Shown here: positions 814 through 13,821 of the stretch, piece after piece
How the letters are laid out: the number at the start of each line of letters is the position of its first letter
How positions within the stretch are numbered: position 1 is the first letter of the stretch
Assembly (NCBI GenBank): GCA_040757115.1
Contig: JBFLYA010000100.1
Span: forward strand, 1-13,821
DNA from: a bacterium
GTDB lineage: Bacteria > UBA9089 > CG2-30-40-21 > SBAY01
Direction of reading: 5' to 3'
DNA length: 13,821 nucleotides
Made by a program: the position numbers and the translations under genes
Notes under the pieces: model-generated
Told to the model about the DNA's origin: nothing
The model's database searches: none
The model's input: only the letters and a program-made list of their open reading frames with translations

Positions 814-3800
814 TTACTTTATTATCCCAAACTTCCCTACCTTCCTTCCACCCCCACCACCGGTTACGGTGTAGATATAGATGCCTGAAGCAAGGTTTTT
901 GTTCAAAACATCCCATTTCTGTGTGCAGTCGGTTACTTCTATCTCATCTATCAGCTCGCCTGCAATACTGTAAATTCTGATGACTGAGCCCTGACGGACA
1001 TTGCCAAAAGAGATATACCTTCCTCCCATCTTTGCATCATTTTTTCTCCAGGGGTTTGGATAGGCAAAGGCATCATTGTTTGTTGGCGCAAAGGTTGGTG
1101 TTCCTCCTATGGCAAATGGAGAGAAATGAGGCACATAAGCAAAACAATAGTTTTCTATATAATTATGATAGGTAACTAAAGGCGTCCATATCCCATCTTC
1201 ATAGTGGTAGATTAAAAGGTTTTCTTCCCTTATATTTGTCCCAGCAACAAAACCATTACTCTCTTGATATGGGAAACGAATGGTGACTGAACCTGGTAAG
1301 GATTGTGTTCCAAAAGGATTATCCTGTTCATCCCTGACTTCTATATCATAGACAATCCCGGCAAACGCAATCCCGGAAGGAGGCGTTGGTGCTGTAGTTG
1401 AGGTGGAAACAGATACTATCACATTTGCTGTTCCCAGTGAACCTGAACCAAACTCTATCATTGGTCCTGTTATTGTTCCATAAGTTATTGTTCCTTGCTG
1501 GGTATTCATATAAACCCAAATTGTGTTAAATCCTGTTATTGTTCCATATTTTGCTATAATTGTATCTGTCCCTCCGTTCGGTGAGGATTTAATGGTTGCA
1601 ATGGTTGTTCCTGAACCAGAGATTATGGTGATTGTAGATGGAGAAATAGAGTTTGTAGTGTCGGTTAAAGTAGCTATGCCTGAGGTTGTTGCTATATTTC
1701 CATAGTTGTCGTAGAGAAGGACACTTAGAGTAAATGTGGCATTAATTGTAGTTGGTGCTGGTAAGAGGAGGGTTAAGGTAAAGGTAGCTGGTGGCAATGT
1801 TTGTGTTCCTTGAAACTCATAAGCACCCATATCTACAATGCGAACTTTCCTCGGATTGCCGTCTTTGTCAGTAGTAAGCCACGCTGGGACATAAGTGTTT
1901 GAACCAGCATCTATGCAAGGAGAAAGGGTACCAAGATGGAAATTGCCTCCTTCGATAAATTGAGGATTGAATGAGATATCGTTTGGCCCAGCAGAGCAGC
2001 CAGAATAATTTTGGATCCCAGTTATTCCATTATTCCAGACGTCGTTGTACTCGATGACGGTAGGGCTTGAAAAATTGCAGTAGATACCATAGGCAGTATT
2101 ACTTGTTGTACCATTCTTTGTAATGATGTTATTGGTGATGGCTGGGGAATTATTCTGGCAGACGATGCCATAATATCTATTCCCTGATATTGTGTTGTTT
2201 ATGATGGATGCAGAGGAAAAGTACTCGCAGATGATGCCAATATTGTCATTCCCTGAGATTGTATTATTTGTGATGCTTGGGGAGGAATAATCGTAGCAGT
2301 GGATACCGTCACCATTCTCTGATATTGTGTTATTAGTAATGGTCGGAGAGGAAGAGTGGCAGTAGACACCAGTATCATTCCCTGATATTGTGTTGTTAGT
2401 AATGGCTGAGGAGGACTTGTAGCAACAGATACCACAGTTATTCCCCAATATTGTGTTATCTATAACGGTTGGGCTTGCATTTGTGCAAAATATTCCATAA
2501 TATCCTCCTGGTGCCCCGGTTATTCTAAATCCTGTAATTGTGCCATTTGCATTACTGCCATTAAAGGTTACGGTATTTGTATTACTAATACCTTGTGCTG
2601 TAATTGTGCAAATATTTGCACCTGCTCCAATTAAGGCAATATTTTTGTTGATGTAGATTGCCTCGTTATAGGTTCCCGCAGAAACAAAAACTGTGCCCCC
2701 AATAGAGCAAACATTTATCCCTTTTTGAATAGTCCGATATGGTTTTGCCTGGCTGCCATCACCGGTTATATCATCTCCTATTGTACTGACATAGACAGTA
2801 CTTATTTGTGTAATTTGCTTAAAGTTTGCCGTGATGTTTTTGTTGCTATTCATTGTAATTTTAATGGGATTTGTATTTCCAGAAACATCCCCACTCCAAA
2901 AATCAAACTGATAGCCTGAATATGGATTAGCGGTAAGGGTTACCTCCTGACCTTGATTATAGACACCACCTGCTGGGTTAAGACTTACCCAACCACCATT
3001 TGTGGGATTGCAATTTACATTAAGGGTGTATTGGTTTGGAGGAGGGGTTATTCCATTTCCTGATGCAGTAAAATCAACCGTTGATTCATCTGGATCGTTA
3101 GAGTTTATTCTAAATGTGGCATTCTTTGCTCCAGTTGAGCCAGGAGAGAATCTTATGGTGGCTGAATCAGAAGAATTTGCTGAAATACTTGAGGGATAAG
3201 AAATAACTGAGAATTCAGAACTTCCAGAAATTCTTGTTAGGTTGGTTATATTGAGAGGAGCATTCCCTATGTTTTGGATGGTAAGGTTTAAATCTTTGCT
3301 TGTTCCTATTACTACATCGCCAAATGAAAGGCTATTTGAAGGAAGATTGATATCAGGAGTAGAGGATTCTATCACATTGGGTCCTATTAAATACTGATCT
3401 GCATTAGAAGGTAACCTCGCCGAACCGCCTTTACCATCAGTGAACTCAAAATGATACTTATGGTTACCTGCTGATAATGTTATAGGGTTGGATTTATAAA
3501 TCCCATTAGCAGAAGAACCACTGAACAACTGCATGACATAGACTGTAGCTTGAGGTGTACCACCATCTATGATTAACCACTTTTTTTCGGGACTATCTCC
3601 ATCTTGGTCGTAGTATTGTACATAATAGTAGAAGTTTGTATTTGTATCACCAGATAATGGATCAACAGAAGGATTGGAAAGCGTGGGATTATGGTTTTGG
3701 GGACTGGTTACTGTAACTTGAATTGGACCAAAATCTTCTGGTGAATTTCCAGTCTGTGAATTTTGTTCATCATTCCACTGACCTTTGGTATCAACCACAT

Positions 3801-4959
3801 GCAAGCCATAGTAATAAGTACCTGTTGAAGTTGGAGTATCGTAGAATGAACCAGAATAGTTTGTTTGTCCTGAAAGGGTTGTTGTTTGAATAGGATTGGG
3901 TGGTTGTGGCCAATTAGGATAATTATTCGTTCGCCAAAGTTCTGTCTCTTTTAAACCAATGTCATCCGAGACAGTATAGGAAATAGTAAATGAATTGCCT
4001 AAAGTTACTGATCTTGGTTGAACATCAAAGGCATTGACGGTGGGAGGGTTGTCTTTAGTCCAGCAAGCACCATATTCGTCCCAACTTGCCTGATTCATTA
4101 TATGATAGGCGTAAAGGCTGACTCCTTCATATCCATAACCTTGGACAGTGTCACAGAATCTTTTAATCTCGCCATTATAAATTTCCCTTCCTATCTCCAG
4201 TTTTCCACCCTGCCCCACTGGCACTATAGGCTTAACAGAATCGCTGTAACCTCCTTGCTTCCAGACACTATGCCAATAATCAAAATCATTCTTCATTCGT
4301 TGAAGTTCTTCTTCCGGAGTTAAAGGCCGTGCTGCCCAATATGCCTGCGGCATATTCCTATTACTATACTTGCCAAACTCAAGCCATGGAAACCATTCAT
4401 GGCCTGTAACCCTTGCAAAGGAAGAATAAGCAATAAAACTTGTTGGATGTTTCTGTCTAATGCCTTTCATATATTGTTCAGCTATAGTTCCTTTTCCCTG
4501 ACCTTCGTATGCTGACTCTGCATTGATAACAAGCCCATCTATTCCAGAAATATCTAAAATCATGTTGGAAACATCTAATTCAGAAACATTTGGTATTCCA
4601 TATTGATCGGAACTGTAAACAAAATGCCACCCAAAAACTTTAATTCCAGAATTGTGAAATTGTTTTATTACCTCACTGAACCCGCCGTATTGTGATGCCC
4701 AATTGTATAGATAGTCACCTGGATCAAGCCAGTAGCCATCGCTATCACCACATTTTATTATGACCCAATTAACACCTGCAGATTTCAGTCTATTTAAAAC
4801 TTTACTTAAGTCTCCATTTTCACATTCCCATATTCTCCATATCCAAAGTCCTTTACCCGTGGAAGCTAACACTGGATAAGCAGAAAGGCAATTTATGATC
4901 AACATAATGCCAAAAATGGCTAGAATGATAATAGATTTGTATTTATTCCTTCCTATCAT
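814..4959 (-). CDS. Giant secreted mosaic protein: glycosidase-like barrel, Ig-like domains, beta-helix, FlgD/T9SS-like C-terminus
   Basis: A 1381-residue exported or surface protein of unknown substrate. Residues 1-32 are a signal peptide (hydrophobic to VLA|S). About 36-302 resemble a TIM-barrel glycoside hydrolase-like domain (WIWRIWE, WVIIKCGD, GIKVFGWHFVY, GLVINAESAYEG). About 304-418 and 424-530 look Ig-like. About 536-637 match a HYDIN/choice-of-anchor-D domain (SLSFGDVVIGTS). About 644-716 resemble an InlB-type repeat (GYQFDFWSG, ITANF). About 720-1048 are a NosD/DUF1565-like right-handed beta-helix with NNTISGN coils. About 1055-1285 are further beta-sandwich sequence. 1286-1381 are a FlgD/type IX-like C-terminal module (YPNPW at 1300-1304, ending KVGKFGIIK). 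The start ATG has GAGGG about 12 bases upstream. It lies 22 bp after the small exported gene, so they probably form one operon. Domain names are from recognition alone; the catalytic residues of the barrel are not certain. Confidence 0.9.
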   Translation of the reverse strand: MIGRNKYKSIIILAIFGIMLIINCLSAYPVLASTGKGLWIWRIWECENGDLSKVLNRLKSAGVNWVIIKCGDSDGYWLDPGDYLYNWASQYGGFSEVIKQFHNSGIKVFGWHFVYSSDQYGIPNVSELDVSNMILDISGIDGLVINAESAYEGQGKGTIAEQYMKGIRQKHPTSFIAYSSFARVTGHEWFPWLEFGKYSNRNMPQAYWAARPLTPEEELQRMKNDFDYWHSVWKQGGYSDSVKPIVPVGQGGKLEIGREIYNGEIKRFCDTVQGYGYEGVSLYAYHIMNQASWDEYGACWTKDNPPTVNAFDVQPRSVTLGNSFTISYTVSDDIGLKETELWRTNNYPNWPQPPNPIQTTTLSGQTNYSGSFYDTPTSTGTYYYGLHVVDTKGQWNDEQNSQTGNSPEDFGPIQVTVTSPQNHNPTLSNPSVDPLSGDTNTNFYYYVQYYDQDGDSPEKKWLIIDGGTPQATVYVMQLFSGSSANGIYKSNPITLSAGNHKYHFEFTDGKGGSARLPSNADQYLIGPNVIESSTPDINLPSNSLSFGDVVIGTSKDLNLTIQNIGNAPLNITNLTRISGSSEFSVISYPSSISANSSDSATIRFSPGSTGAKNATFRINSNDPDESTVDFTASGNGITPPPNQYTLNVNCNPTNGGWVSLNPAGGVYNQGQEVTLTANPYSGYQFDFWSGDVSGNTNPIKITMNSNKNITANFKQITQISTVYVSTIGDDITGDGSQAKPYRTIQKGINVCSIGGTVFVSAGTYNEAIYINKNIALIGAGANICTITAQGISNTNTVTFNGSNANGTITGFRITGAPGGYYGIFCTNASPTVIDNTILGNNCGICCYKSSSAITNNTISGNDTGVYCHSSSPTITNNTISENGDGIHCYDYSSPSITNNTISGNDNIGIICEYFSSASIINNTISGNRYYGIVCQNNSPAITNNIITKNGTTSNTAYGIYCNFSSPTVIEYNDVWNNGITGIQNYSGCSAGPNDISFNPQFIEGGNFHLGTLSPCIDAGSNTYVPAWLTTDKDGNPRKVRIVDMGAYEFQGTQTLPPATFTLTLLLPAPTTINATFTLSVLLYDNYGNIATTSGIATLTDTTNSISPSTITIISGSGTTIATIKSSPNGGTDTIIAKYGTITGFNTIWVYMNTQQGTITYGTITGPMIEFGSGSLGTANVIVSVSTSTTAPTPPSGIAFAGIVYDIEVRDEQDNPFGTQSLPGSVTIRFPYQESNGFVAGTNIREENLLIYHYEDGIWTPLVTYHNYIENYCFAYVPHFSPFAIGGTPTFAPTNNDAFAYPNPWRKNDAKMGGRYISFGNVRQGSVIRIYSIAGELIDEIEVTDCTQKWDVLNKNLASGIYIYTVTGGGGGRKVGKFGIIK
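2180..2470 (-). repeat. Coding tandem repeats of beta-helix coils
   Basis: Inside the large gene, the segment resembling CCTGATATTGTGTTGTTAGT recurs about every 63-69 bases on the plus strand, one per helical turn of 21-23 residues. The encoded coils follow GIxCxxSSPxITNNTISGN. Such near-identical coil DNA is a substrate for slippage or recombination between beta-helix genes. Confidence 0.75.
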
Positions 4960-4981
4960 TTCTGTTTTTTTCCCTCATTTA

Positions 4982-5617
4982 TCATTTGCCTAGGGTAAAA
5001 GTAGAAAGTATTCCATTAAACATTTTGACATGATTGTTTTTGTCATTTAGCATTTCTCTAAGAGCTTTATCAACCATTTCTTTATGTGTAATCTTCCTTT
5101 TCTCTTCTCCACGAATTCTTGATTCAGGTATCATTCCAGGAATTCCCGACATAAAATTATAATCCAGCGATACAATGTAATATTTTCCTTTGTATTCTGT
5201 GTAACAATTGATTACGGTATCCCAACCACCTGCTCCTCCGTATACAATCCAGTAGTCTTTTTTAAAGGGGATACCGTTCAAGATTACTTTTTCAGTAAAA
5301 ACGCGATTGGACAACATTGGGTCACTAGAGTTTTCTCTAAAGTAATAACGCCCCCCAAAAGTTCCACTAAGAGAAACAAAAGGTTTTTTATCAACAAAGA
5401 TGTGTATAACAGCTCTTTCTTCTCCTGGAAGACGGATGCTAAGTGCAGATTCATTAAAGCATTTTATGGGTTCGCCTAAATACTTTACTTTAAATCCATA
5501 TCTCTGGTTTTTATAAATTTTCCACTGCGAAAAACTAGTTTTTCCTTGTTGTCCTCTCGCAGAAGAAATGCAAATCAACATCCCTATACTTATTATTAAA
5601 ACCAAAACCTTTTTCAT
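4982..5617 (-). CDS. Small exported protein of unknown function (PsbP-like style)
   Basis: A 211-residue protein with a Sec signal peptide (MKKVLVLIISIGMLICISSARG, cleaved near residue 22). The mature part opens with W-x-x-Y-x-N-x-x-YGFKVKY (residues 32-46) and ends FNGILSTFTLGK. This pattern is shared by exported PsbP-like or lipoprotein-like proteins of unknown role. There is no lipobox Cys, no membrane span after the signal and no recognisable catalytic motif. The start is supported by a GGAGGAGG ribosome binding site ending 4-5 bases before the ATG. Its stop is 22 bp before the start of the giant beta-helix protein, so the two are probably cotranscribed and may act together outside the cytoplasm. 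I cannot assign a function. Confidence 0.8.
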   Translation of the reverse strand: MKKVLVLIISIGMLICISSARGQQGKTSFSQWKIYKNQRYGFKVKYLGEPIKCFNESALSIRLPGEERAVIHIFVDKKPFVSLSGTFGGRYYFRENSSDPMLSNRVFTEKVILNGIPFKKDYWIVYGGAGGWDTVINCYTEYKGKYYIVSLDYNFMSGIPGMIPESRIRGEEKRKITHKEMVDKALREMLNDKNNHVKMFNGILSTFTLGK

Positions 5618-5655
5618 GTTACCTCCTCCTTCTCCCCCAACCCAAAACCAAGCTA

Positions 5656-5690
5656 ATTATAACCCCTTTTATTTTCATCCTATCTCCAAT
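5656..5690 (-). promoter_or_regulatory. Possible promoter of the exported-protein operon
   Basis: On the minus strand a perfect -10 hexamer TATAAT (5661 to 5656) lies 38 bases before the start of the small exported gene. No good -35 is seen at the usual distance, so an activator or an extended element would be needed. The call rests on the -10 alone. Confidence 0.35.
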
Positions 5691-5787
5691 CTCCCTTCTC
5701 TAAACTTAAGCAAAAGATTAAAGTTTGAGAGAGAGTCCACATCAAGCCAAAACCAGCAACCTCAAAACTTTTTTCATTTTCCTCTTT

Positions 5788-6027
5788 TTATTCTAATAGG
5801 GCATTAATCTCATCATCCGTAAACCCAAATTGCCGAAAAATACGCAACACATAAGCGGGTGAAAGTTCTCCTGCTCCCATATCAATCGGAACAATTCTCT
5901 TTTTGCCTTCCATATAGCGAATATACAATTGGTGATCACCCCTTCCTTTTCTATAAAAGGCACAATCACCTCTTTGCAAAACACGGATTAACTCTTTCGG
6001 TTTAAGAGAAGGAATATTTTTACGCAT
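5788..6027 (-). CDS. hicA: HicA-family mRNA interferase toxin
   Basis: A 79-residue HicA/YcfA-like toxin. The family has a double-stranded-RNA-binding-like fold and cleaves mRNA. The expected elements are present: an N-terminal helix (SLKPKELIRVLQRGD), the strand with the catalytic His (GDHQLYIR, His32), the basic strand GKKRIVPID and the C-terminal helix LRIFRQFGFTDDEINALL. Length is normal for the family. It starts within the end of hicB (8-bp overlap, 6020-6027), so translation is probably coupled and follows the antitoxin. The antitoxin-first order is seen in some hicBA loci. A different frame reading through 5793-5984 is a shadow. Confidence 0.85.
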   Translation of the reverse strand: MRKNIPSLKPKELIRVLQRGDCAFYRKGRGDHQLYIRYMEGKKRIVPIDMGAGELSPAYVLRIFRQFGFTDDEINALLE

Positions 6028-6286
6028 ATACAGCCTTTAATTCATATGATTCCAAAGCGGAATTTTTTACCTCTAGTGTCAAGAATTCATGTAGTTCTTT
6101 TATCGATATAGGCATACTGTATATGTCGCTTTCTTCCTTGCGAACATCCTCGAAGGAAAAAACAGCCTCCATAAGTTTCTTAATTGCCTCTTCTTTAGTT
6201 ATCCCTTGCCCTACCAATCCATTCTCTAAACACAAAGCTACCCAAAATTCTTTGCTTTTTCTAACTACGGCTGTATAGAAATTCAC
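6020..6286 (-). CDS. hicB: HicB-family antitoxin
   Basis: An 88-residue HicB-like protein that should bind and neutralise the adjacent HicA. The N-terminal half shows the degenerate RNase H-like HicB core (TAVVRKSKEFWVALCLENG, then GQGITKEEAIKKLMEAV). The C-terminal part (residues 50-88) has no clear ribbon-helix-helix or helix-turn-helix motif, so its role in DNA binding is unproven. The start is a GTG chosen because a perfect AGGAGGTGA lies 9 bases upstream (6301-6293). It is preceded by its own sigma-70-like promoter. Upstream on the same strand is a truncated beta-helix leader, 89 bp away. Confidence 0.8.
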   Translation of the reverse strand: MNFYTAVVRKSKEFWVALCLENGLVGQGITKEEAIKKLMEAVFSFEDVRKEESDIYSMPISIKELHEFLTLEVKNSALESYELKAVYA

Positions 6287-6315
6287 CGCCTTTCACCTCC
6301 TATATTGCTCTTTTT

Positions 6316-6344
6316 ATTTTACAGCTTATTCCTGTTTTAAGCAA
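6316..6344 (-). promoter_or_regulatory. hicBA promoter with possible operator
   Basis: On the minus strand TTGCTT (6344-6339) and TAAAAT (6321-6316) are separated by exactly 17 bases, 30 bases before the hicB GTG. A short inverted repeat GCTTA...TAAGC overlaps the -35 and spacer, which would suit autorepression by the antitoxin complex; that role is inferred. Confidence 0.55.
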
Positions 6345-6375
6345 GGGTTAATAAGCCTTTATTTCCTTATTTTTT

Positions 6376-6609
6376 CTAAACTGCCTCATTGTAGGTTCCT
6401 GCCGCAACAATTATCCTATCGCCACTGGTTGCTGCATTTGCATTTATTGCCGCCTGGATGGTGGTATAACTTCCTGGCACATACAAATCCGCTGCCATTG
6501 TCTCATAGCCCCAAATTAGCCCTAAAACTACTAAAGCACAAACCTTTTTCAAAACTGATAGGAAATTGCTTTTTTGAGTGTTTTGGATATTATATCCATT
6601 TGTGCCCAT
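6376..6609 (-). pseudogene. Truncated beta-helix leader (stub 4), upstream of hicBA
   Basis: A 77-codon 5' fragment of a secreted beta-helix gene. It has a hydrophobic signal segment (KKVCALVVLGLIWGYETMA|AD), then LYVPGSYTTIQAAINA and GDRIIVAAGTYNEAV, where it stops. In the full-length homologue at 814-4959 the same sequence continues into the next coils. The first 19 residues lack a counterpart in the other leaders, and a promoter is only 9 bases upstream of the ATG. The real start may therefore be the TTG at 6552-6550, which aligns with the MKK start of stub 1; no ribosome binding site is visible there. It could still make a tiny secreted peptide, but loss of all later coils suggests a dead fragment. 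Confidence 0.75.
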
Positions 6610-6618
6610 TGTGAGGAT

Positions 6619-6647
6619 ATGTTACCACAAATTTTATCCTTTGTCAA
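6619..6647 (-). promoter_or_regulatory. Sigma-70-like promoter for the stub-4 leader
   Basis: On the minus strand TTGACA (6647-6642), a 17-base spacer and TAACAT (6624-6619) form a near-consensus promoter. The predicted transcript start falls within a few bases of the annotated ATG, which favours an internal translation start or a nearly leaderless message. Confidence 0.6.
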
Positions 6648-6672
6648 CAAAAATCGGCTCTTTTGAAAATTA

Positions 6673-7054
6673 GTATCAAAGAGAGCGTTGCGTAGAACTT
6701 AAGGCTATATTTACGGTCCCTGCCATTGTGTTACCTCATTTCTTGCCATCTTTTTGTATTTCTTGACATTTTGGAGTCCCAAAAGACAACCCAGAGGGGC
6801 ATTAACCAGTCGATAATTGGTTATTTGGATGCATTGTTCCCCTCCTAATTTAAAACTTACTTCTGTTGTCTTTATCGACTTAATCAATCATAACCTTTAA
6901 CCACTTTAGAATTTACAACTATATAACACCTCCTCATCTTGATGTCAACTAAGCAGATTATCTCTTTTTTATAGCTTTGGCATCTTTTATCACCCAAAAC
7001 TCATCCCAAACCCGCACCATAACTAAAAACTATTTGCAACGCTCTCGTATCAAA
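6673..7054. mobile_element. 366-bp MITE-like element with 8-bp target duplication
   Basis: The direct repeat GTATCAAA flanks the element on both sides (6673-6680 and 7047-7054). Its ends are inverted repeats GAGAGCGTTGC (6681-6691) and GCAACGCTCTC (7036-7046). The interior carries no transposase. A minus-strand frame of about 58 codons (6887-6711, starting TTG) is open but unsupported, and a 10-codon ATG frame follows an AGGAGG. An 8-bp duplication is usual for several IS families, and I cannot name the parent. A matching end fragment (AACGCTCTCG) sits at about 8095-8104. It separates the stub-4 promoter from the PIN gene to the right. Confidence 0.75.
6920..6948 (-). promoter_or_regulatory. 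Outward promoter inside the 366-bp element
   Basis: On the minus strand TTGACA (6948-6943), a 17-base spacer and TATATA (6925-6920) point out of the element toward stub 4 and hicBA, about 300 bp away. The elements match the consensus well; activity is inferred. Confidence 0.5.
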
Positions 7055-7142
7055 AACCTGTTTGACTAAGACAAATTCACAAAAAATCACCATTAACAAT
7101 GATGAGTTAGAACACAATTATCCTCTGGGGGAAGTCGGGTCG

Positions 7143-7190
7143 GGGGACACAATACTAAATTTTGAGGGAAAAATAAAGTATTGTGTCTCC
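7143..7190. repeat. REP-like hairpin, GGGGACACAATACT arms
   Basis: The arms 7143-7156 (GGGGACACAATACT) and 7177-7190 (AGTATTGTGTCTCC) pair at 13 of 14 positions around a 20-base loop. Imperfect palindromes of this GGGACACrATACT type often accompany RAYT/IS200-like transposases, but no such gene is in the window. It lies in the gap between the MITE and the PIN gene; the rest of 7055-7311 shows nothing else. Confidence 0.65.
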
Positions 7191-7311
7191 GTAATTGCCC
7201 TTTGTGCTTTGTGTGCGGGATAGTTCAATCGATAGTTGCAAAAATCTACAACCCTAAATCCCATCTCAACCCACAACGACCGTATGCCGCAAAGCGTAAA
7301 ATTCTATCATC

Positions 7312-7797
7312 CTAAATCTCCCCTGCCTGCTTTAATATCTCCAGATATAACTCATTACTCACCCTGAAGTCTTTGGCAATCAATTCATCAACATATGGCT
7401 TCACTTCTGAAATAAGTCCACCAGACTTAGCCGCCACCAATATACCAAGTGTCCCAGTCTTGCTGATTCCTATTCTATCCGCCGTTATTCTCGCAGGTTT
7501 CTCATCTAACAAGACTAAATCTCCATTTAATTCTGATGCCAACACCAGGGTTTCACTTTCACCAGCACTTAGAGTTGCCCGAAGAATACTTACCGAAAGT
7601 CGATTTTGCACCTTTTCTCGCTTTATCCATTCCGCCTTTTCTACTTCTTGTGCTCCCAACCTTTCTTTTCCTTTTAGGGCAATTTCTTCATAAACTGCTT
7701 CAGGAATATAGAGCGTAGCATACATCGACTTTAATAGATGGAGCTTATTAATCTTAGCCAGCGAGATAAGCGGGGTGGCATTTGAGACGACAATCAT
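7312..7797 (-). CDS. DUF3368 PIN-like toxin, partner of UPF0175 antitoxin
   Basis: A 161-residue PIN-superfamily protein of the DUF3368 type, which is regularly paired with UPF0175 antitoxins. PIN toxins are Mg-dependent ribonucleases. Seen here: the opening strand VVSNATPLISLAKI (Asn6 where many PINs have Asp), LSAGESETLVLA with Glu80 and Glu82, DLVLLDEKPAR with Asp98 and Glu99, and the family's GTLGILV. Length is normal. The start ATG overlaps the stop of the antitoxin by 4 bases (ATGA, 7794-7797), a typical coupled arrangement. No terminator is evident after its stop. Substrate unknown. Confidence 0.85.
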   Translation of the reverse strand: MIVVSNATPLISLAKINKLHLLKSMYATLYIPEAVYEEIALKGKERLGAQEVEKAEWIKREKVQNRLSVSILRATLSAGESETLVLASELNGDLVLLDEKPARITADRIGISKTGTLGILVAAKSGGLISEVKPYVDELIAKDFRVSNELYLEILKQAGEI

Positions 7798-8069
7798 TTT
7801 TGCATCATCTCCTTTGCCACAGCAATATCTTCAGCTAACTCATCAGGTGTCTGTCTGAAGAACGGTATATTATTCTTTGCTAGCACCTCGATAAACTCCA
7901 TCCTGCTTATTTCCACCAATTCAGATGCCTTGCCTGAAGATATTTTGCCTTCCTGAAACAATTTTAAAGCAGCCAGCTCCTTTAATTTTTGAGAAAACTG
8001 CTGCTTTGTAGTACCCAGAATAGCAAGAACCTCATCTGGCATCTCTACTTGAGCTACACTCATACCCAT
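7794..8069 (-). CDS. UPF0175 family antitoxin
   Basis: A 91-residue small helical protein of the UPF0175 family, expected to bind and neutralise the DUF3368 toxin. The family pattern is clear: LKELAALKLFQEGKISSGKASELVEISRMEFIEVLAKNNIPF, a helix-turn-helix-like core, followed by an acidic toxin-binding tail (DELAEDIAVAKEMMQ). I place the start at the ATG at 8069-8067. A perfect AGGAGG (8083-8078) lies 8 bases upstream, and it overlaps the more distal GTG at 8078, which therefore cannot be the start. A second ATG at 8063 is possible. It is the first gene of a two-gene operon. Unlike the other modules here, no beta-helix leader precedes it. Confidence 0.85.
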   Translation of the reverse strand: MGMSVAQVEMPDEVLAILGTTKQQFSQKLKELAALKLFQEGKISSGKASELVEISRMEFIEVLAKNNIPFFRQTPDELAEDIAVAKEMMQK

Positions 8070-8126
8070 TAAAGTCACCTCCTATCTTTTTATGAACGCT
8101 CTCGGATAAAATTTAGCGTTGATTTT

Positions 8127-8153
8127 ATTAGCCGTTCCGGCTAATTATTTTTT
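8127..8153 (+). terminator. Terminator-like hairpin read on the plus strand
   Basis: ATTAGCCG-TTC-CGGCTAAT (8127-8145) is a perfect 8-bp stem followed by TATTTTTT. The T run suits plus-strand transcription, yet no plus-strand gene is seen. It could insulate the UPF0175 operon or be a relic of an element. Confidence 0.5.
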
Positions 8154-8440
8154 CCTTCTCCCCCAATATTTTTGAGCGAAATTCTTACTTCCTTTCTTTA
8201 CTTAGTTCCAATTTCCTTCTATATCTCCAGGTCCGCACATGGACAGGGATAAATTCTATCCCTACCGATATATGCACTTAGAAAAAATCCCACCTCCTTA
8301 ATTCCCTGCCCGCGAAGGAGAAGGGAAAGTAGTTCCTTTAACCTTAATGCGGGGAGGTTTCTCTTCTAACCGCATAGATCGAATAATTGTGCTGAATAGT
8401 TACTTTTCCCCCTTATAATTTCCCTAAATCTTCCTTTGCA

Positions 8441-8480
8441 GTCTTTGCGTCCTGGCGTGAAACTTACTTTTTTTTCACGC
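8441..8480. repeat. Partial TTTCACGC/GCGTGAAA repeat
   Basis: CTTTGCGTCCTGGCGTGAAAC is the reverse complement of one arm of the repeats at 450-549 and 661-762, and it is followed by TTTTTTTCACGCAAAGG, the other arm. Here the arms abut instead of enclosing a loop, so this is a rearranged family member. Confidence 0.6.
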
Positions 8481-8594
8481 AAAGGTTACTCTGAAAAATG
8501 AATTTATACCACGAATACCACGCATGGCACGAAGCTTCACTAAGACTATCACTTGTATTTGTAACTATTTCTCCAAATGAAATGCAAGGTGATT

Positions 8595-8657
8595 GGGTAA
8601 TCAGGTGATTCAGATAAAGCGTTAAACCGGTCACTGATAACCGATAACTGATTACCC
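8595..8657. repeat. 63-bp palindromic repeat, GGGTAATCAG arms
   Basis: The outer arms GGGTAATCAG (8595-8604) and CTGATTACCC (8648-8657) are perfect complements. The right half holds stuttered ACTGATAACCGATAACTGAT units. The motif resembles the ends of the 299-bp insertion at 12900-13198 (CAGTTATTAGTGG). Confidence 0.65.
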
Positions 8658-8736
8658 GGATTCCACTTCAGATGGCTAAAGTATTACTAATTTCAGGGTT
8701 ATCTTCCTTAGTGTTCTTAGTGCCTTATTGTTTTTT

Positions 8737-9675
8737 TTATTGTCTCGCTAACCTTACCACCTTATTTATCTCTTCCTTTGAAAGTCCGGTTATCTTAGCA
8801 ATCACATCAATATTAAATCCCTCTGAATACATAGCCTTAGCATCCTCTACTGCTTTCCTATATTCACCTTGTTGTATCCCTTGTTGTAATCCTTGTTGCA
8901 TTCCTTGTTCTATCAATTTCATAGCGGTAGTCATTGTTGCTTCACCCCCTTTCTCGGAAATCTTCTTCACTACCTCTACTACATCTTCTACTCCTATCTC
9001 GGTGCTACTGTAAATATACCGAATAACACCTTCCAAAAATTTTAGCCCTTTCTCCTCCTCGTAACACATCTGCCCTATCTCTAAAAAATCCCCGATATGC
9101 TCCCGCAATTTCCCCTCATCATATATGCTCTTCATCACTAATAAGGCTATCCTAAGAGTTACATCCAAAAGAACCTGCCCCTTTATCTCCTCATCACTAT
9201 ACCTCGATAAATCTGTCAATAAATAATCAAATTCAGGAATATATCTCTTTAATCCCTCATCTATCCCTTTAAAATATTCAGATAACCCTTTCACTACCCA
9301 TCGTTCTTTACCGTGATAAAAAATAATAGGTATAACAGGTCTTAAACCCTCTTTCTGTTTGATATTTGTCTCCCATATCTTAAGGATATACCGTAGAAGC
9401 TGTAAATGCGGGTATTTGACTGCCTTGCTCTTATGTTCAAATAAAAGCGAAACCTTTACCTTGCTCTTAGCCTTGTAAAGACAATTATAAACTATGTCTG
9501 AAAAGTTCTCTTTTAGTTCCTCATCAATGTAAGAGTTATTATCCAATTCCAGGGTTGATAAATCAAGGTTTTTCTTCAGAGCATCGGGTAAAATGCTGTT
9601 GATAAAATTAGAGGCATTCTCTTTGTTTGAAAATATCTCTTTGAAGAAACTGTCATGTGGATTTGATATCTCCAT
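8737..9675 (-). CDS. Rpn-family recombination-promoting nuclease / PD-(D/E)XK transposase-like
   Basis: A 312-residue protein of the Rpn/transposase_31 type (COG5464-like). Family members are PD-(D/E)XK DNA endonucleases that raise recombination and spread laterally. Seen: the family opening NPHDSFFKEIFSNKENASNF, a catalytic Asp in FSDIVY (Asp60), the E-x-K pair in LLFEHKS (Glu80, Lys82), the conserved LRPVIPIIFYHGKERW (about 110-126), and the C-terminal Q-G repeat zone IEQGMQQGLQQGIQQGEYRK (about 255-274) before a helix-turn-helix-like end (AKITGLSKEEINKVV). Full length, with AAGGAG 5 bases before the ATG. A truncated beta-helix leader ends 25 bp upstream. A decayed second copy lies at 12435-13359. 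Confidence 0.85.
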   Translation of the reverse strand: MEISNPHDSFFKEIFSNKENASNFINSILPDALKKNLDLSTLELDNNSYIDEELKENFSDIVYNCLYKAKSKVKVSLLFEHKSKAVKYPHLQLLRYILKIWETNIKQKEGLRPVIPIIFYHGKERWVVKGLSEYFKGIDEGLKRYIPEFDYLLTDLSRYSDEEIKGQVLLDVTLRIALLVMKSIYDEGKLREHIGDFLEIGQMCYEEEKGLKFLEGVIRYIYSSTEIGVEDVVEVVKKISEKGGEATMTTAMKLIEQGMQQGLQQGIQQGEYRKAVEDAKAMYSEGFNIDVIAKITGLSKEEINKVVRLARQ

Positions 9676-9700
9676 CTTATCTCCTTACCCCAGTTTTGTT

Positions 9701-9958
9701 CTAACTGGTATGATAACACATAACATAGAAGAAGTCAAGTTGTTTGTTTTTTTCCGCACAAATTAAGGCAATGTTCTTGTTGATATAGATTGCCTCATTA
9801 TAACTTCCAGGAGCAACAAAAATGGTATCGCCCGGATTTGCGGCATTTATTGCGGATTGAATGGTGGGATAAGACCCTGGCATATAACGGTCTGCTCCAA
9901 AGGCTGCATTTAAACCCAAAACTCCCAAAATTCCCAATAGTAATAACATCCTTTTCAT
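9701..9958 (-). pseudogene. Truncated beta-helix leader (stub 3), upstream of Rpn nuclease
   Basis: 85 codons: signal peptide MKRMLLLLGILGVLGLNAAFG|AD, then YMPGSYPTIQSAINAANPGDTIFVAPGSYNEAIYINKNIALI, and then a foreign tail (AEKNKQLDFFYVMCYHTS) to a TAG 25 bp before the Rpn start. Its first-coil DNA is close to that of the giant protein. The foreign tail and the ALI-junction recur beside the decayed Rpn copy (13385-13463), so leader and nuclease moved or were duplicated together. Expression of leader and Rpn as one message is likely. Confidence 0.75.
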
Positions 9959-10139
9959 CTTTATTCGACATCCTTGATATTACTCACCTTTCTTAAGAAG
10001 GTTAAAACTGAGGTTGAAGTAGGAATATATTGCCTGATTATTTCTCTCTTTCCTCAAAGGAAAAATCTTCCTCTTTAACGATAACCTTGATTTTATCCAC
10101 CTTGAACACACTTATTGAACCTACCCATAATGTCCAATC

Positions 10140-10634
10140 TCATAATCTTTCTAATACCAGATCACAGAGACTTTCCTTGATCCAAATATCTTTTCGTCGC
10201 TTGATTTGTTGAATTAACAAAATTCCTTCATCTCTGATAAGAACATTTCTTTTTACTGCTTCCAGGAGAACACTTAATGTTCCTTTTGGTTTCAAACCAT
10301 ATCTTATGGCGACCTCTCTGGCAGTAGCATCGTCAATTAATACAAAATCTGCTTTTATCACAAGAGCCAACTCAAGCGTTGTTTTTTCTCCTTCCTCTAT
10401 CTCTGTTACACATTGAAGTTTATCTAACAGAACTTTTCTCATTTTAAATATCCCTCTGGAAAAGTAGTCACGGATTAGGTAAGCATCTGATACTCCCTGA
10501 CTTATCCCTGAAACAACTGTTTCCTCATAAACCTCTTCTGCCACAAAAACAGAACCATAGAGTTTCTGTAATATATCAAGCCGTCCAAGTTTGCCAAACG
10601 CTATCAATGGTCCAGCATTACTGACAATTTTCAT
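10140..10634 (-). CDS. DUF3368 PIN-like toxin (second copy of the type)
   Basis: A 164-residue DUF3368 PIN-superfamily toxin, likely a ribonuclease. Seen: IVSNAGPLIAFGKL at the start, IEEGEKTTLELA with Glu81 and Glu83, DFVLIDDATAREVA with Asp101 and Asp102, and GTLSVLLEAVKR. It is clearly diverged from the 7312-7797 protein, so the two pairs were acquired separately or split long ago. The ATG overlaps the antitoxin stop by 4 bases (10631-10634). After the TGA the same frame stays open for 33 codons to 10038; this may be chance. Confidence 0.85.
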   Translation of the reverse strand: MKIVSNAGPLIAFGKLGRLDILQKLYGSVFVAEEVYEETVVSGISQGVSDAYLIRDYFSRGIFKMRKVLLDKLQCVTEIEEGEKTTLELALVIKADFVLIDDATAREVAIRYGLKPKGTLSVLLEAVKRNVLIRDEGILLIQQIKRRKDIWIKESLCDLVLERL

Positions 10635-10882
10635 CCCTTAATCTCCTCTATCATTTCATTCGTCACACGAGGTTCAATACCTCTTCTGCGTGCTTCTTCA
10701 ATCATTTCTCTCAATGACAAATTGGCAATTTTAGCCGCTTTCCAGACTGATATACCGCCTTTGCGAAGCATAATAAGAGCTTTTTCTATACGCATCTCAC
10801 GCATACCAATCAAAAAGAACTGTTCAATCTCTTCTTCAGACAACCCTTTTGCTTCCTCTGGTAATTCTATAGTTATTTGCAT
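10631..10882 (-). CDS. UPF0175 family antitoxin (second module)
   Basis: An 83-residue UPF0175 antitoxin for the DUF3368 toxin that follows. It starts with an EL-rich strand (MQITIELPEEAKGLSEEEIEQF), then the helical core RIEKALIMLRKGGISVWKAAKIANLSLREMIEEARRRGI, which carries the family's helix-turn-helix-like region. A GGAGGTG ribosome binding site precedes the ATG, and a near-consensus promoter lies about 40 bases upstream. It therefore does not depend on the leader fragment (stub 2) located 168 bp upstream. Confidence 0.85.
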   Translation of the reverse strand: MQITIELPEEAKGLSEEEIEQFFLIGMREMRIEKALIMLRKGGISVWKAAKIANLSLREMIEEARRRGIEPRVTNEMIEEIKG

Positions 10883-10923
10883 AACTTACACCTCCAATTA
10901 TTAGTTCCGTGAAAACAATGTTT

Positions 10924-10952
10924 AATATATCACCTTTGATTGCAAATGTCAA
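10924..10952 (-). promoter_or_regulatory. Strong promoter of the second UPF0175/DUF3368 operon
   Basis: On the minus strand TTGACA (10952-10947), exactly 17 bases, then TATATT (10929-10924), ending 41 bases before the antitoxin ATG. This is the best sigma-70 match in the window and shows that the module brings its own promoter. Confidence 0.7.
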
Positions 10953-11050
10953 AAGAAAATTGACTCACCACAGCAATTCTCAGTGAAGGAGAAGACAGAG
11001 AAGTTTATCACAAAATTTCCTCATCATCCCCTTACTGATTATTAGCTTCC

Positions 11051-11242
11051 TCAAAGAAGGTGGGATAAAATTTCCACCCTACGACTGTATGTGTCAGCAG
11101 AGATATAGATAGTATCCCCATTATTTGCGGCATTTATTGCGGATTGGATTGATTGACCTGGATTAACAAACAAATCCGCCGCCATTACCTCCCTGGATAG
11201 GAAAACTACTCCTAAAATTACTAACCTAACAATCTTCCACAT
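11051..11242 (-). pseudogene. Truncated beta-helix leader (stub 2), upstream of second UPF0175/DUF3368 pair
   Basis: 63 codons: signal peptide ending REVMA|AD, then LFVNPGQSIQSAINAANNGDTIYISADTY, after which an unrelated tail (SRRVEILSHLL) runs to TGA. It breaks at the same part of the first coil as the other leaders. It starts only 20 bp after the PIN gene to its right, with an AAGGAAGAGG ribosome binding site that overlaps this gap, so it may ride on that operon's transcript. 168 bp of gene-free DNA separates it from the next antitoxin. Confidence 0.75.
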
Positions 11243-11262
11243 TTTTTCCCCTCTTCCTTATT

Positions 11263-11682
11263 TTATTCAGGTCTTTTGGCAAATCCAAACTGAACAAAAT
11301 GAGAATCATTAGTAAAAGCCTCAGTAAGTCTTTGCCATTTCATCACTGCAAAGGTCGGGCAGTCAGCAAATGAAAAGGTTTTATCCTCATATTTCTTAAA
11401 TATTTTCCATGCCTCTTTTTCAATCTCAGAGGTAATATGCACTATCTGAATCAACCCTGCACTTTTAGAAATCTCTATTCCCTCTCCAAATTCAACTGCT
11501 ATTTTATGAATTGCATTATTTCTTATCAATGTATAGGTTTCACATAGGATAAAGTTAGTAGTGACATACCTATACCCTTCTTCTATCAAATCTTTGTCTA
11601 TTTGTGCGGCTATTTTGTGAAAGGTATCTTTCTTATTGGTTAAAGCACACCATGCCCAGGTATCTACAAGAATCCTTTTCAT
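11263..11682 (-). CDS. VapC-type PIN toxin
   Basis: A 139-residue PIN-domain ribonuclease with the expected acidic residues in place: Asp7 (ILVDTWAW), Glu48 (ILCETYTL), Asp107 (FSFADCPTFAVMK) and Asp126 (AFTNDSHF). Length is normal for VapC-like proteins. Its ATG shares one base with the stop of the antitoxin frame (TAATG at 11684-11680), so antitoxin and toxin are coupled. The antitoxin carries a frameshift, which raises the question of whether this toxin is still balanced. The active-site residues all look intact. Confidence 0.85.
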   Translation of the reverse strand: MKRILVDTWAWCALTNKKDTFHKIAAQIDKDLIEEGYRYVTTNFILCETYTLIRNNAIHKIAVEFGEGIEISKSAGLIQIVHITSEIEKEAWKIFKKYEDKTFSFADCPTFAVMKWQRLTEAFTNDSHFVQFGFAKRPE

Positions 11683-11926
11683 TATGATTTCACTCCATAC
11701 AAATACTTGTTATGGTTTTCTGCTAAATCCTCTGGCCCTTCAAAAAAACCTTCTCTTAATCTACACATAAAACTTTTTGCCTGCTTAAGGTTCTGATTGT
11801 GCTGAAGCCAATCTAAAATGATGGTAGATGTCCATTCTGCCACAGTTTTTTTTCATCTTCAGCCATTTTCCTTAAAATTCTGAATTCCTTTTTAGGAATT
11901 GAAACCTGTAAAGCCACTCTTTCCAT
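11682..11926 (-). pseudogene. Antitoxin of the PIN module, with a frameshift in an A8 run
   Basis: From ATG 11926-11924 the frame reads MERVALQVSIPKKEFRILRKMAEDEKK and then meets TAG. If the run of eight A (plus-strand T8 near 11846-11853) held nine, the frame would continue as TVAEWTSTIILDWLQHNQN and on to EDLAENHNKYLYGVKS with its stop coupled to the toxin start. This would be 81 residues, the size of a ribbon-helix-helix type antitoxin. The 3' frame is open and plausible, so this is a real gene broken by one base, a slippery phase-variable site, or an assembly error. A perfect AGGAGGTGA is 8 bases upstream of the ATG. Confidence 0.65.
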
Positions 11927-11931
11927 CTTTA

Positions 11932-12159
11932 TCACCTCCTAAAACTTTTTTGATACTCTCTATCAACCATGGCAATACTTTTGTCGATATAGACTACCTC
12001 GTTATAGCTTCCAGCGACAACATAAACAGTATCCCCAGGATTTACTGTATTTACAGCAGACTGAATGGTTGAATATTGCGAAGGCACATACAAATCCGCT
12101 GCATTTGCCTCATAGCCCCAAATTAGCCCCAATACTACTAACGCTAAAATTTTTTTCAT
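11932..12159 (-). pseudogene. Truncated beta-helix leader (stub 1), fused into the antitoxin ribosome binding site
   Basis: 75 codons: signal peptide MKKILALVVLGLIWGYEANA|AD, then LYVPSQYSTIQSAVNTVNPGDTVYVVAGSYNEVVYIDKSIAMV. It ends with a short foreign tail whose last codons AGG AGG TGA are the Shine-Dalgarno sequence of the downstream antitoxin. Its stop is 5 bases before the antitoxin ATG. The signal peptide is nearly identical to that of stub 4, so these leaders come from one gene family. Ribosomes finishing the leader would be placed at the antitoxin start. Confidence 0.75.
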
Positions 12160-12248
12160 TTTATCAACACATCCTATTTAATTTTAATATAGACTAAAGA
12201 CCAAATAAAGTACCACAAGCATCCTGCTTGTCCTCTTCATTTCTTAAC

Positions 12249-12401
12249 ATAGTGCTTTGTCGCTACTCGATTGTTGTCCCCCGCTGGCGGGGGATTAAGA
12301 GGGTGGAATATGAAATCTGAAATAGAAGAATCCACCCCCCTACCCCCGCCAGCCGGGGACAACGGCCAATCAACCACTTGAATGGCGACAGAGCAATAGT
12401 G
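12249..12401. mobile_element. ~140-bp hairpin MITE with 6-bp direct repeats
   Basis: ATAGTG flanks the element (12249-12254 and 12396-12401). The two halves are imperfect complements: CTTTGTCGC and GCGACAGAG near the ends, GTTGTCCCCCGCTGGCGGGG against CCCCCGCCAGCCGGGGACAA inside, and AGGGTGGA against TCCACCC near the centre. No gene fits inside. The GC-rich inner arms stand out against the AT-rich surroundings. The rest of 12160-12434 holds only a CAAGCA-GGA-TGCTTG hairpin and the leader's weak upstream region. Confidence 0.65.
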
Positions 12402-12641
12402 TTCCGCTGTGGTTTTAGTGCCTTAGTGGTTTTTTTATTGTCTCGCTAACCTTACCACCTTATTTATCTCTTCCTTTGAAAGTCCGGTTATCTTAGCAAT
12501 CACATCAATATTAAATCCCTCTGAATACATAGCTTTAGCAGCCTCTACTGCTTTCCTATATTCACCTTGCTGTAATCCTTGTTGCATTCCTTGTTCTATC
12601 AATTTCATAGCAGTAGTCATTGTTGCTTCACCCCCTTTCTT

Positions 12642-12842
12642 GGAAGAGCTCTCTCAACAATTCAGAACTTAGATTTAACCGAAGTTTGCGTCTAAATATT
12701 TTACTATCTTCCCCCCATTTTTTACCCATAATTTCACAATCTGGAGGCATTGTTCCTTCTATCGAAACAATACGCAAGTATAACACTATGAATAGTTTTT
12801 TCACTACGATACATTCTATTGATTTGTTGAGAAAGCTCGGAA
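12642..12842. mobile_element. 193-bp MITE inside the Rpn pseudogene
   Basis: The inverted ends GAGCTCTCTCAACAA (12646-12660) and TTGTTGAGAAAGCTC (12824-12838) match at 14 of 15 positions. GGAA is present on both sides (12642-12645, 12839-12842) but once in the uninterrupted copy at 8961-8964, which gives a 4-bp target duplication. No transposase inside. Confidence 0.8.
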
Positions 12843-12888
12843 ATCTTCTTCACTACCTCTACTACCTTTTCTACTCCTATCTCGGTGC

Positions 12889-13209
12889 TACTGTAAATAG
12901 TAATGGGTCAGCTATCGGTGGTAAAAAATATTCCTCTCGCAAAGGCGCAAAGGAGGCAAAGAAATTTCAAATCACAAATTCCAAAGGACAAATAAATCCC
13001 AATGACCAAAATTCAAATTTCCAAATTAATCCGTTCCTCGTTATTCGTTGAACGAATAACGAGGAGTCTTAAACACTGAACTCTAAACGAATAGAATTTG
13101 GTGTTTGGAATTTGGAATTTATTTGTAATTTGGTGCTTGAAATTTGGAATTTCTGACTACTTTACGTTCTTTGCGCCTCCCACTAATAACTGATGGATTA
13201 CTGTAAATA
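12889..13209. mobile_element. 299-bp insertion with 11-bp target duplication inside the Rpn pseudogene
   Basis: TACTGTAAATA stands at 12889-12899 and 13199-13209, and once in the intact copy (9006-9016). The ends are imperfect inverted repeats (12901-12921 against 13180-13200, 15 of 21). The interior folds on itself: CGCAAAGGCGCAAAG against CTTTGCGCCTC, AAATTCCAAA-type tracts against TTTGGAATTT, and a 29-base palindrome at 13036-13064. No gene. Confidence 0.75.
13036..13064. repeat. 29-base palindrome CCTCGTTATTCGTT / AACGAATAACGAGG
   Basis: The 14-base arms (13036-13049, 13051-13064) are perfectly complementary around a single central G. It lies at the middle of the 299-bp insertion and would extrude a cruciform or be a protein-binding site. 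Confidence 0.85.
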
Positions 13210-13384
13210 TACCGAATAACCCCTTCCAAATTCCAGGGTTGATAAATCAAGGTTTTTCTTCAGAGCATCGGGTAAAATGCTGTTGATAAAATTAGAGGCA
13301 TTCTCTTTGTTTGAAAATATCTCTTTGAAGAAACTGTCATGTGGATTTAATCTCTCCATCTTATCTCCTTAGCCCAGCTTTGTT

Positions 13385-13463
13385 CTAACTGGTATGATAA
13401 CGCATAACATAAAAGAAGTCAAATTGTTTGTTTTTTTCCGCACCAATTAAGGCAATATTTTTG
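13385..13463 (-). pseudogene. Remnant of a fifth beta-helix leader next to the Rpn pseudogene
   Basis: Read on the minus strand this gives KNIALIGAEKNKQFDFFYVM and RYHTS, then TAG, matching the end of stub 3 (KNIALICAEKNKQLDFFYVM). The 5' part, including the signal peptide, has been cut away at 13463 where the GTAATTATTCAACCA repeat begins. It shows that the leader and the Rpn gene were copied as a unit. Confidence 0.7.
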
Positions 13464-13490
13464 GTAATTATTCAACCACAGATGGACTTA
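13464..13490. repeat. End motif of the GTAAYTATTCARCC repeat family
   Basis: GTAATTATTCAACCACAGAT repeats the ends of the element at 315-812 and cuts both the leader remnant to its left and the antitoxin-like fragment to its right. It is probably a solo end left by rearrangement. Confidence 0.55.
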
Positions 13491-13654
13491 TGAATATCTC
13501 TTATAATTTCTTCCGGACTACGATTGTCTTCCCAACTTCCACATAAAGAAAGCAATTTCCTCTTTCGTTCATCTAAGTCTTTTCGATGGAAAGGTTCCAG
13601 GAATGTCACCGCCACATAATATGTTTTTTTGTAAGCGTTCAGGTGGTGTAACAA
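13472..13654 (-). pseudogene. Truncated antitoxin-like fragment (VapB-style C-terminus)
   Basis: About 60 codons from a TTG. Residues 27-55 (LDERKRKLLSLCGSW, EDNRSPEEIIRDIHKS) look like the C-terminal toxin-binding part of VapB antitoxins, whose usual form is GSW-x-D-x-R-x-x-EEI-x-x-I. The last codons (ICG, stop) come from the repeat end at 13464-13490, so the true C-terminus is lost. No ribosome binding site precedes the TTG, and the N-terminal DNA-binding half is not recognisable. No toxin follows. 13655-13821 holds no gene that I can support. Confidence 0.5.
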
Positions 13655-13821
13655 AAGGAGATGTGGAGATTAAGGAGATAGGGAGATATTATTAAAAAAA
13701 ATTGAAATTAATAGAAACTAATACTCGATGTTCAAGTTTTTTAGTTTTAGGGGCATAAAGTCCTTATTTTTATTTTAGCTCAAGTGAGACAATATGCTGT
13801 TCTCCATTTCAAGAAAGGGGT

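Follow-up and report, generated by a model that had tools for sequence, protein, structure and literature searches.

Small toxin–antitoxin (TA), Rpn and defence modules recur in this phylum in arrays where unrelated modules follow like stubs of other genes. The stubs come from three or more unrelated source genes: a secreted beta-helix gene and a PocR sensor-kinase gene, each with its 5′ end, and, as a third family, a class III cyclase gene with its 3′ end. One locus combines an orthologous flank with a different stub and a different module in two species. The reading put forward here, that stubs of multi-copy genes are repeated boundaries between mobile TA, Rpn and defence modules, which are swapped by recombination in the stubs, has in our estimation an even chance of being correct. 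That a stub is joined to a different module in sister genomes suggests that such clusters are built and shuffled in a manner not described before, and no description of stub-separated TA arrays was found in the open-access papers searched.

The window, i.e. the whole stretch of 13,821 nt that was analysed, carries four orphan beta-helix leaders, which, like all window features given here, are on the reverse strand. ORFs and a leader profile (95-118 bits) bear out the preliminary description in that each has a signal peptide and first beta-helix coil and then leaves the family. Leader 1 (6376-6609; 77 aa, 97.9 bits, model positions 2-56) ends ...GTYNEAV*; leader 2 (9701-9958; 85 aa, 110 bits, and 19.0 bits to DUF1565, just under the Pfam cut-off of 20.3) departs past NIALI; leader 3 (11051-11242; 63 aa, 95.4 bits), starting 20 nt past the PIN stop, breaks past ADTY; and leader 4 (11932-12159; 75 aa, 118.5 bits) breaks past IAMV. 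They are 5′ ends of genes for DUF1565/NosD-like secreted beta-helix proteins, but unlike those proteins keep only signal peptide and first coil, which are homologous to full-length beta-helix genes carried by the same genome (G000:C5 and C153; 50-58% identity). With open frames of 68-92 codons the complete multi-coil solenoid is absent. The leader peptides as such are probably without function.

The same-orientation gene claimed for each leader is also present, by Pfam. Leader 1 is followed by a HicB-like gene (6286-6020; DUF7387, 21.3 bits, below cut-off) and HicA (6027-5788; HicA_toxin, 27.3 bits against a cut-off of 27), leader 2 by an Rpn/Transposase_31 gene (8737-9675; 163.8 bits), leader 3 by UPF0175 (10882-10631; 33.6 bits) and DUF3368 (10634-10140; 21.4 bits, below cut-off), and leader 4 by a frameshifted small ORF (11935-11813, 11843-11682) and a PIN toxin (11682-11263; 39.3 bits). 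Another UPF0175/DUF3368 pair (7312-8078; 89.0 and 63.4 bits) has no leader; a 65-nt block upstream of it (8095-8159) is 93.8% identical to one upstream of HicB in G001:C402. No plasmid relatives of 5600-13821 were found. An exchange of leaders with the intact gene at 814-4959, one of the ideas first offered, is rejected because the N-terminus of its product, a 1381-aa secreted protein with internal beta-helix, is unrelated to the leaders, the matching coil (2739-2626) being internal.

A fifth leader ‘remnant’ had been placed at 13385-13463, where there is neither signal peptide nor coil, just NIALIG codons. It is no independent evidence, being a copy of the left edge of the Rpn unit: a decayed, leaderless second unit occupies 12402-13463 (NIALIG edge 13440-13463; repeats D1, D2, D6 and D9, and alignment), and 235 nt of its left edge are 95.7% identical to 9545-9779. 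In alignment, the junction at 9758-9784, with NIALIG codons ATTGCCTTAATT, is the left edge common to three Rpn copies. The Rpn gene behind leader 2 is 98.0% identical over 939 nt to one behind a different leader in G001:C350, the flanks there being 47% identical. No Rpn relatives were found among viral contigs. The breaks themselves were said to fall between ADTY/GTYNEAV and NIALIG, and within the window they lie at codons ~51-68; in relatives they spread from codon ~24 to ~90, with a cluster at NIALIG. A single shared integration or recombination site in beta-helix genes is unsupported, given the scatter of breakpoints and the origin of the identical Rpn junctions by copying from a single fusion; the same two points rule out a single integration site at NIALIG.

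Across the phylum there are 29 orphan beta-helix leaders, and 17 of the ~22 evaluable ones lie directly upstream of a TA or Rpn module, counted as a same-strand TA/Rpn gene no more than 300 nt downstream, as against 1 of 21 full-length beta-helix controls (Fisher p = 9e-7). The modules do not depend strongly on a leader: just 4 of 25 UPF0175 genes are behind one, the other 21, and most Rpn copies, having no stub. All genomes compared are drafts of hundreds of contigs, probably metagenome-assembled, and many arrays stop at contig ends.

Leader 4 provides the one clean exchange locus found. Its 111-nt 5′ flank (12151-12261) is 99.1% identical in G001:C350, the leaders are 69% and the downstream sequences 45% identical, and the switch is inside the leader. 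Like flank with different leader and module at one locus in two species supports the surmise that the leaders behave as exchanged segments. Neither a recombinase for such exchange nor a circular intermediate nor an empty site was observed.

The leader need not be of beta-helix origin. Sister genera use the first ~25 codons of a PocR-type sensor-kinase gene in similar arrays, with stubs spaced at 690-860 nt. Fifteen short orphan copies, at unrelated loci in G002, G003 and G017, average 91% identity to their consensus over 54 nt, and correspond to the beginning of a G016 gene for a 728-aa kinase, the match starting at that gene's Shine-Dalgarno; a rough dN/dS of 0.48, from few changes, does not decide whether these stubs are under selection at protein level. 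Other arrays in sister genera have the 3′ end of the cyclase gene in this role. The modules at these stubs include UPF0175/DUF3368, HicBA, DUF2281/MazF, HepT/MNT, type III R-M and IetAS. A unit of kinase stub, UPF0175, DUF3368 and stub occurs in two genomes with 94.5% identity over 916 nt, but the genes that come after it differ, the kinase-stub unit in G002 beginning near a contig end. DUF5678/aspartyl-protease pairs, candidates for TA or defence functions, also recur behind stubs. The unrelated second stub family, the phylum-wide link between leader and module, and the locus with different leader and module support the initial view that random decay does not suffice to explain the pattern.

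Module exchange is partly demonstrated; as to its enzymology, we infer that modules may enter and swap by recombination in short conserved stretches of the stubs. The stretches used in beta-helix leaders would be ATGAAAAA at the left and ATTGCCTTAATTGG at the right, and in the kinase stub a 55-80 nt core, with homologous pairing presumably acting at one side and short-homology joining at the other. The addictive modules would then persist, the body of the source gene not being carried along. A point against is that the 50-80% identity of most beta-helix leaders to one another is low for efficient homologous recombination. Three TA families have the leader plus TGRAATARAATGATAAAATAT in common; as a dispersed repeat this leader-plus-promoter motif was discarded, being confined to three leader junctions with otherwise chance matches. 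The further-reaching proposition, of a cassette mechanism peculiar to this phylum that uses stubs from the start or the end of multi-copy host genes as working recombination boundaries, making TA and defence modules swappable without a dedicated attachment site, is tentative and rather unlikely as a whole. If gene stubs do work as boundaries, any conserved repeated gene end could become an attachment region.

Decay in situ is the alternative that survives best, though it too is improbable. By it, these loci were once occupied by beta-helix genes; TA modules came in and the remainder of each gene was lost by deletion, only 5′ stubs surviving because truncation near the start would be tolerated, whereas a secreted partial solenoid would harm. 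Many leaders being frameshifted or broken is in keeping with this, as are the interior beta-helix fragments retained at G018:C145, a 5′ flank common to a 139-aa stub (G003:C98) and a full-length gene in G002, and full-length genes that are also directly behind TA modules, e.g. at G014:C42. However, blastn of 4960-13821 detected neither the body nor the 3′ part of a beta-helix gene in the vicinity of the window leaders, and orphan C-terminal ends are almost absent from eight genomes. The pattern is also all but absent from other phyla, with 1 orphaned leader in 57 loci as against 29 in 62 here, and the switch of identity from flank to leader at the orthologous locus counts against decay as well. 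Near-identical kinase stubs stand behind the unrelated genes HdrC, PpdK, HepT and HicA, where a former kinase gene is not required.

Capture of leaders for expression, raised early on, is kept as a weak rival and is distinctly unlikely. Fusions would be selected for the promoter, translation start and short upstream ORF, opening the module start, that a stub gives. Stub copies do often begin at the start codon, with left edges at ATG −2 to 0 in several high-identity copies, or at the native Shine-Dalgarno, which counts for the boundary reading too, and NIALIG codons at G014:C22 and G001:C402 give a TTGCCT/TTGACC hexamer 17 nt ahead of TAAAAT. The stub stop lies no more than 6 nt from where the module starts in 9 of 34 cases versus 7 of 68 in other frames, but the significance is marginal (p = 0.036) with the width chosen post hoc. 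Furthermore, several stubs are frameshifted or lack an ATG, and most modules have a strong Shine-Dalgarno of their own, several with a promoter-like site too, e.g. TTGACA-17-TATATT (11/12 by sequence match; 10924-10952) for the UPF0175 unit and TTGACT-17-TATCAT (9710-9738) for the Rpn unit, the latter resembling the TTGACT-17-TATAAT that precedes an Rpn gene without leader (L293). Such sites are no commoner in the region than in shuffles (27 vs 23.3 ± 5.2).

Still less probable is a site-specific cassette system in which the stubs are recombinase attachment sites comparable to integron attC. There are arrays of modules with repeated separators and, as with integrons, integron-integrase-like genes elsewhere in these genomes (above the NCBIfam cut-off in G000, at C39 and C30, and in G003). 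Against this, no integrase is on the window contig and none of 12 integrase regions has a beta-helix leader nearby; attC-like separators are rejected since the kinase-stub core does not fold (z 0.70 and 0.37, on a par with shuffled sequence) and beta-helix stubs are degraded coding sequence; and the stub families are unrelated in sequence, with beta-helix edges varying widely. False joins at repeated gene starts, suggested by the fragmented drafts and by arrays that stop at contig ends, are very improbable given that the arrays recur in genomes assembled independently of one another and that junctions show orderly Shine-Dalgarno spacing and stop codons overlapping starts, and because most beta-helix leaders are too dissimilar (50-80%, as above) for assembler confusion to be likely.

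It has long been asked by what means TA modules and small defence systems move in the absence of transposases. Array boundaries that are recognisable gene stubs offer a direct handle on transposase-free movement: the points of entry and exit of modules can be read from the stub copies, exchange events can be mapped between strains, and stubs are usable as bait for new defence or TA candidates, the DUF5678/aspartyl-protease pairs being an example.

From the perspective of known systems, the co-location of type III R-M, IetAS, HicBA, MazF, HepT/MNT and UPF0175/DUF3368 beside stubs is reminiscent of defence islands, though these, as commonly described, are not known to have repeated gene stubs between modules. 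In the IS26-type translocatable unit, one repeat plus cargo lands beside a copy of the repeat, yielding repeat-cargo-repeat-cargo arrays. The layout here is similar, but the repeat encodes no transposase and is only a piece of a host gene. Matches to Transposase_31 are confined to the Rpn genes, which account for just one module, and a search of the window for long inverted repeats found none flanking leader-module units. Homology-facilitated illegitimate recombination (discussed in PMC6382021, with reference to de Vries and Wackernagel 2002) joins foreign DNA by a RecA-dependent homologous anchor at one side and microhomology at the other, with which the junction alignments appear compatible. 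The process has been described from transformation of model species and is not known to build module arrays. Sedentary chromosomal integrons have gene-cassette arrays with TA cassettes (e.g. PMC11023631, PMC11014356). The arrays of the window and its relatives resemble these in having small same-strand modules, many of them TA, with a repeated element between, but the separators here are coding stubs of ordinary genes and belong to several unrelated families.

Four orphan leaders of secreted beta-helix genes, each retaining the signal peptide and first coil with the rest of the gene absent, lie on the minus strand of the window, which is the entire contig C100 of a 4.3 Mb draft genome (G000) in 462 contigs. 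As noticed in the preliminary description, each has a module behind it: HicB-like/HicA after 6609-6376, Rpn after 9958-9701, UPF0175/DUF3368 after 11242-11051, and, after 12159-11932, a PIN toxin preceded by a small frameshifted ORF. The fifth leader or remnant claimed at 13385-13463 proves to belong to a second copy of Rpn, forming its left edge (95.7% identity to the first over 235 nt), with the NIALIG codons of the first coil only, and the suggested exchange with the intact gene at 814-4959 finds no support, the N-terminus of that gene being different and its matching coil internal (2739-2626). A UPF0175/DUF3368 pair at 8078-7312, minus strand, has no leader. Near it, a 65-nt non-coding block carrying a terminator-like hairpin (ATTAGCCGTTCCGGCTAAT) at 8095-8159 recurs with 94% identity at 1458-1522 of locus L045, one copy preceding UPF0175 and the other, in a different genome, HicB. 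Also present are a MITE-like segment of ~380 nt with inverted ends GAGAGCGTTGC / GCAACGCTCTC (6675-7060) and, at the contig end (1-116), a 48-nt unit (TTGTCCCTATGGGACATTATTTGTATG...) in two and a half tandem copies.

The association is real, and wider than the window. A leader profile, searched in G000 and 18 relatives from its phylum, revealed ~29 orphan leaders in seven of the genomes studied. When the downstream neighbour is defined as the first gene on the same strand no more than 300 nt away, a toxin-antitoxin (TA) or Rpn module follows in 17 of ~22 evaluable cases, the types being HicB/HicA, UPF0175/DUF3368, ParE/RelE, PIN, HEPN or MNT, and Rpn; the remainder lead to a DUF5678/aspartyl-protease pair or similar, a PMT_2 protein, a Golvesin_C-type secreted protein, or an unknown. 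Full-length beta-helix genes from this set of genomes have a TA gene next in 1/21 evaluable cases (Fisher p = 9e-7, with downstream classes assigned by hand and orphans sharing one contig only partly independent). In other phyla, 57 loci with leaders of the same type include a single non-edge short frame. Since a search of eight genomes gave almost no orphan C-terminal ends, relics of the family are mostly 5' ends. At L100 (G003:C336) a leader is joined directly to a C-terminal VDTGAYEFQ segment, the whole solenoid having been deleted internally.

Exchange is apparent at one locus. The leader at 12159 shares a 111-nt 5' flank at 99.1% identity with contig C350 of the related genome G001, the whole flank being found nowhere else in eight genomes searched. 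Directly after ATGAAAAAA identity is 69% across the leader and 45% past it. The C350 module is the window Rpn unit, 98.0% identical over 939 nt to that behind the 9958 leader, and the 5' flanks of those two are unrelated (47%). With the flank conserved and leader and module divergent, one flank thus bears one leader with PIN in one species and another leader with Rpn in the other, the joins being at or within the leader. No convincing leader was evident at six other Rpn loci of G000 and G001, and some have a promoter-like site of their own; fusion to a leader thus marks a single lineage of the element.

Breakpoints fall at codons ~51-68 in the window and from ~24 to ~90 in relatives, which does not support a single common breakpoint between ADTY/GTYNEAV and NIALIG. 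A cluster at NIALIG comprises the 9958 leader and G001:C350, carrying one and the same Rpn unit, and the 12159 leader, G001:C402, G014:C22, C227a, C227b and C211b. C402 and C22 have a -35-like hexamer, formed by the codons ATTTGACC / ATTGCC, 17 nt ahead of TAAAAT. Behind the leader, TGRAATARAATGATAAAATAT is common to C402 (HicB), C22 (UPF0175) and C227a (ParE-type), placing three TA families behind one leader-promoter junction; elsewhere in 12 genomes searched it had chance matches only. In high-identity copies homology often starts at the start codon (relative positions -2, -1 and 0 in G014:C42, 0 in G014:C22, -2 in G014:C208). Stubs, as we term short broken-off gene pieces adjoining such modules, often begin within 20 nt of the end of the upstream gene, and some HEPN genes extend into the leader, which supplies their last codons. 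In TVWVADG-type leaders four bases, TTAA or CTCG, stand in place of the Trp codon TGG, a +1 shift seen at G017:C169, G017:C156, G014:C42 (L069 1715 and 13141) and G018:C149. It is at the identical codon in three genomes, the coil resuming in the new frame in several, and may represent either a common lesion or programmed frameshifting.

An all-against-all search for 5' segments common to the fronts of non-homologous genes yielded a second separator, MKISNVEPLEVNKITDLIEPRTLELI, with 16 copies in G002, G003 and G017 (frames of 21-64 codons; 15 are clearly short stubs, whose mean identity to consensus over 54 nt is 91%), spaced 690-860 nt apart in arrays. This separator corresponds to the 5' end of a PocR-type sensor-kinase gene, beginning at the gene's own Shine-Dalgarno: a 728-aa frame in G016 matches at the DNA level, and a 606-aa protein with PocR and HATPase domains in G002 is more distantly related. 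Around it are UPF0175/DUF3368, HicB/HicA, DUF2281/MazF, HicA-like, HepT/MNT and DUF5678-like/aspartyl protease modules, a type III restriction-modification system accompanied by a DUF1016 protein, IetAS, and a kinase showing a weak TIR-like match. One stub-UPF0175-DUF3368-stub unit is 94.5% identical between G002 and G003 over 916 nt, different genes following; in G002 its left side is close to the end of a contig. A third separator, which from its sequence and the known features of the family, rather than from a profile match, we take to be the 3' end of a class III cyclase gene, precedes HicB/HicA, DUF5678/protease and MNT/HepT; its homology starts at -2 to -3 relative to the start codon. 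The kinase and cyclase cases imply that what is essential is a short stub of a gene, whether or not it comes from a beta-helix gene or from a 5' end. The stubs that precede TA modules are also followed, recurrently, by a DUF5678 or similar protein of 70-80 aa and then a retropepsin-like aspartyl protease (L049 573-179, L256 1003-1646, L237 2488-2936, L258 5906-6513, L075), a candidate new TA or defence pair. A family of small membrane-anchored ORFs (MVIGMLGVCLTVLSIILAYIWKGNQKMEKAIL...), with no Pfam match, also recurs among TA modules (L053, L056, L069).

These genomes hold stub-delimited arrays. Their stubs come from several source genes, one kind of stub can be followed by unrelated modules, and exchange is seen at one locus. 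Most likely, modules would be swapped by recombination within brief conserved parts of the stubs, probably with homologous pairing at one side and short-homology joining at the other, and TA modules would afterwards be kept through addiction. Decay of source genes in situ accounts for some cases, such as G018:C145 and the G003:C98 / G002:C394 pair, and may have given rise to the first fusions. That modules capture expression from the stub is possible but a weak case: the stub stop and the module start are no more than 6 nt apart in 9/34 cases against 7/68 for other frames (p = 0.036), but the 6-nt window was picked after the fact. An integron-like system is unlikely, given separators that do not fold and the lack of an integrase nearby. 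Integron-integrase-like genes (TIGR02249) are many, mostly broken, in these genomes (G000:C39, C30, C63, C118, C114, C324, C154 and C116; G003:C43; G001:C77 and C297; G018:C66), and none of these loci has a beta-helix leader nearby. There is a real, if minority, chance that the arrays represent a distinct cassette mechanism. Among known kinds of organization, stub-separated arrays are best placed between defence islands and gene-cassette arrays.
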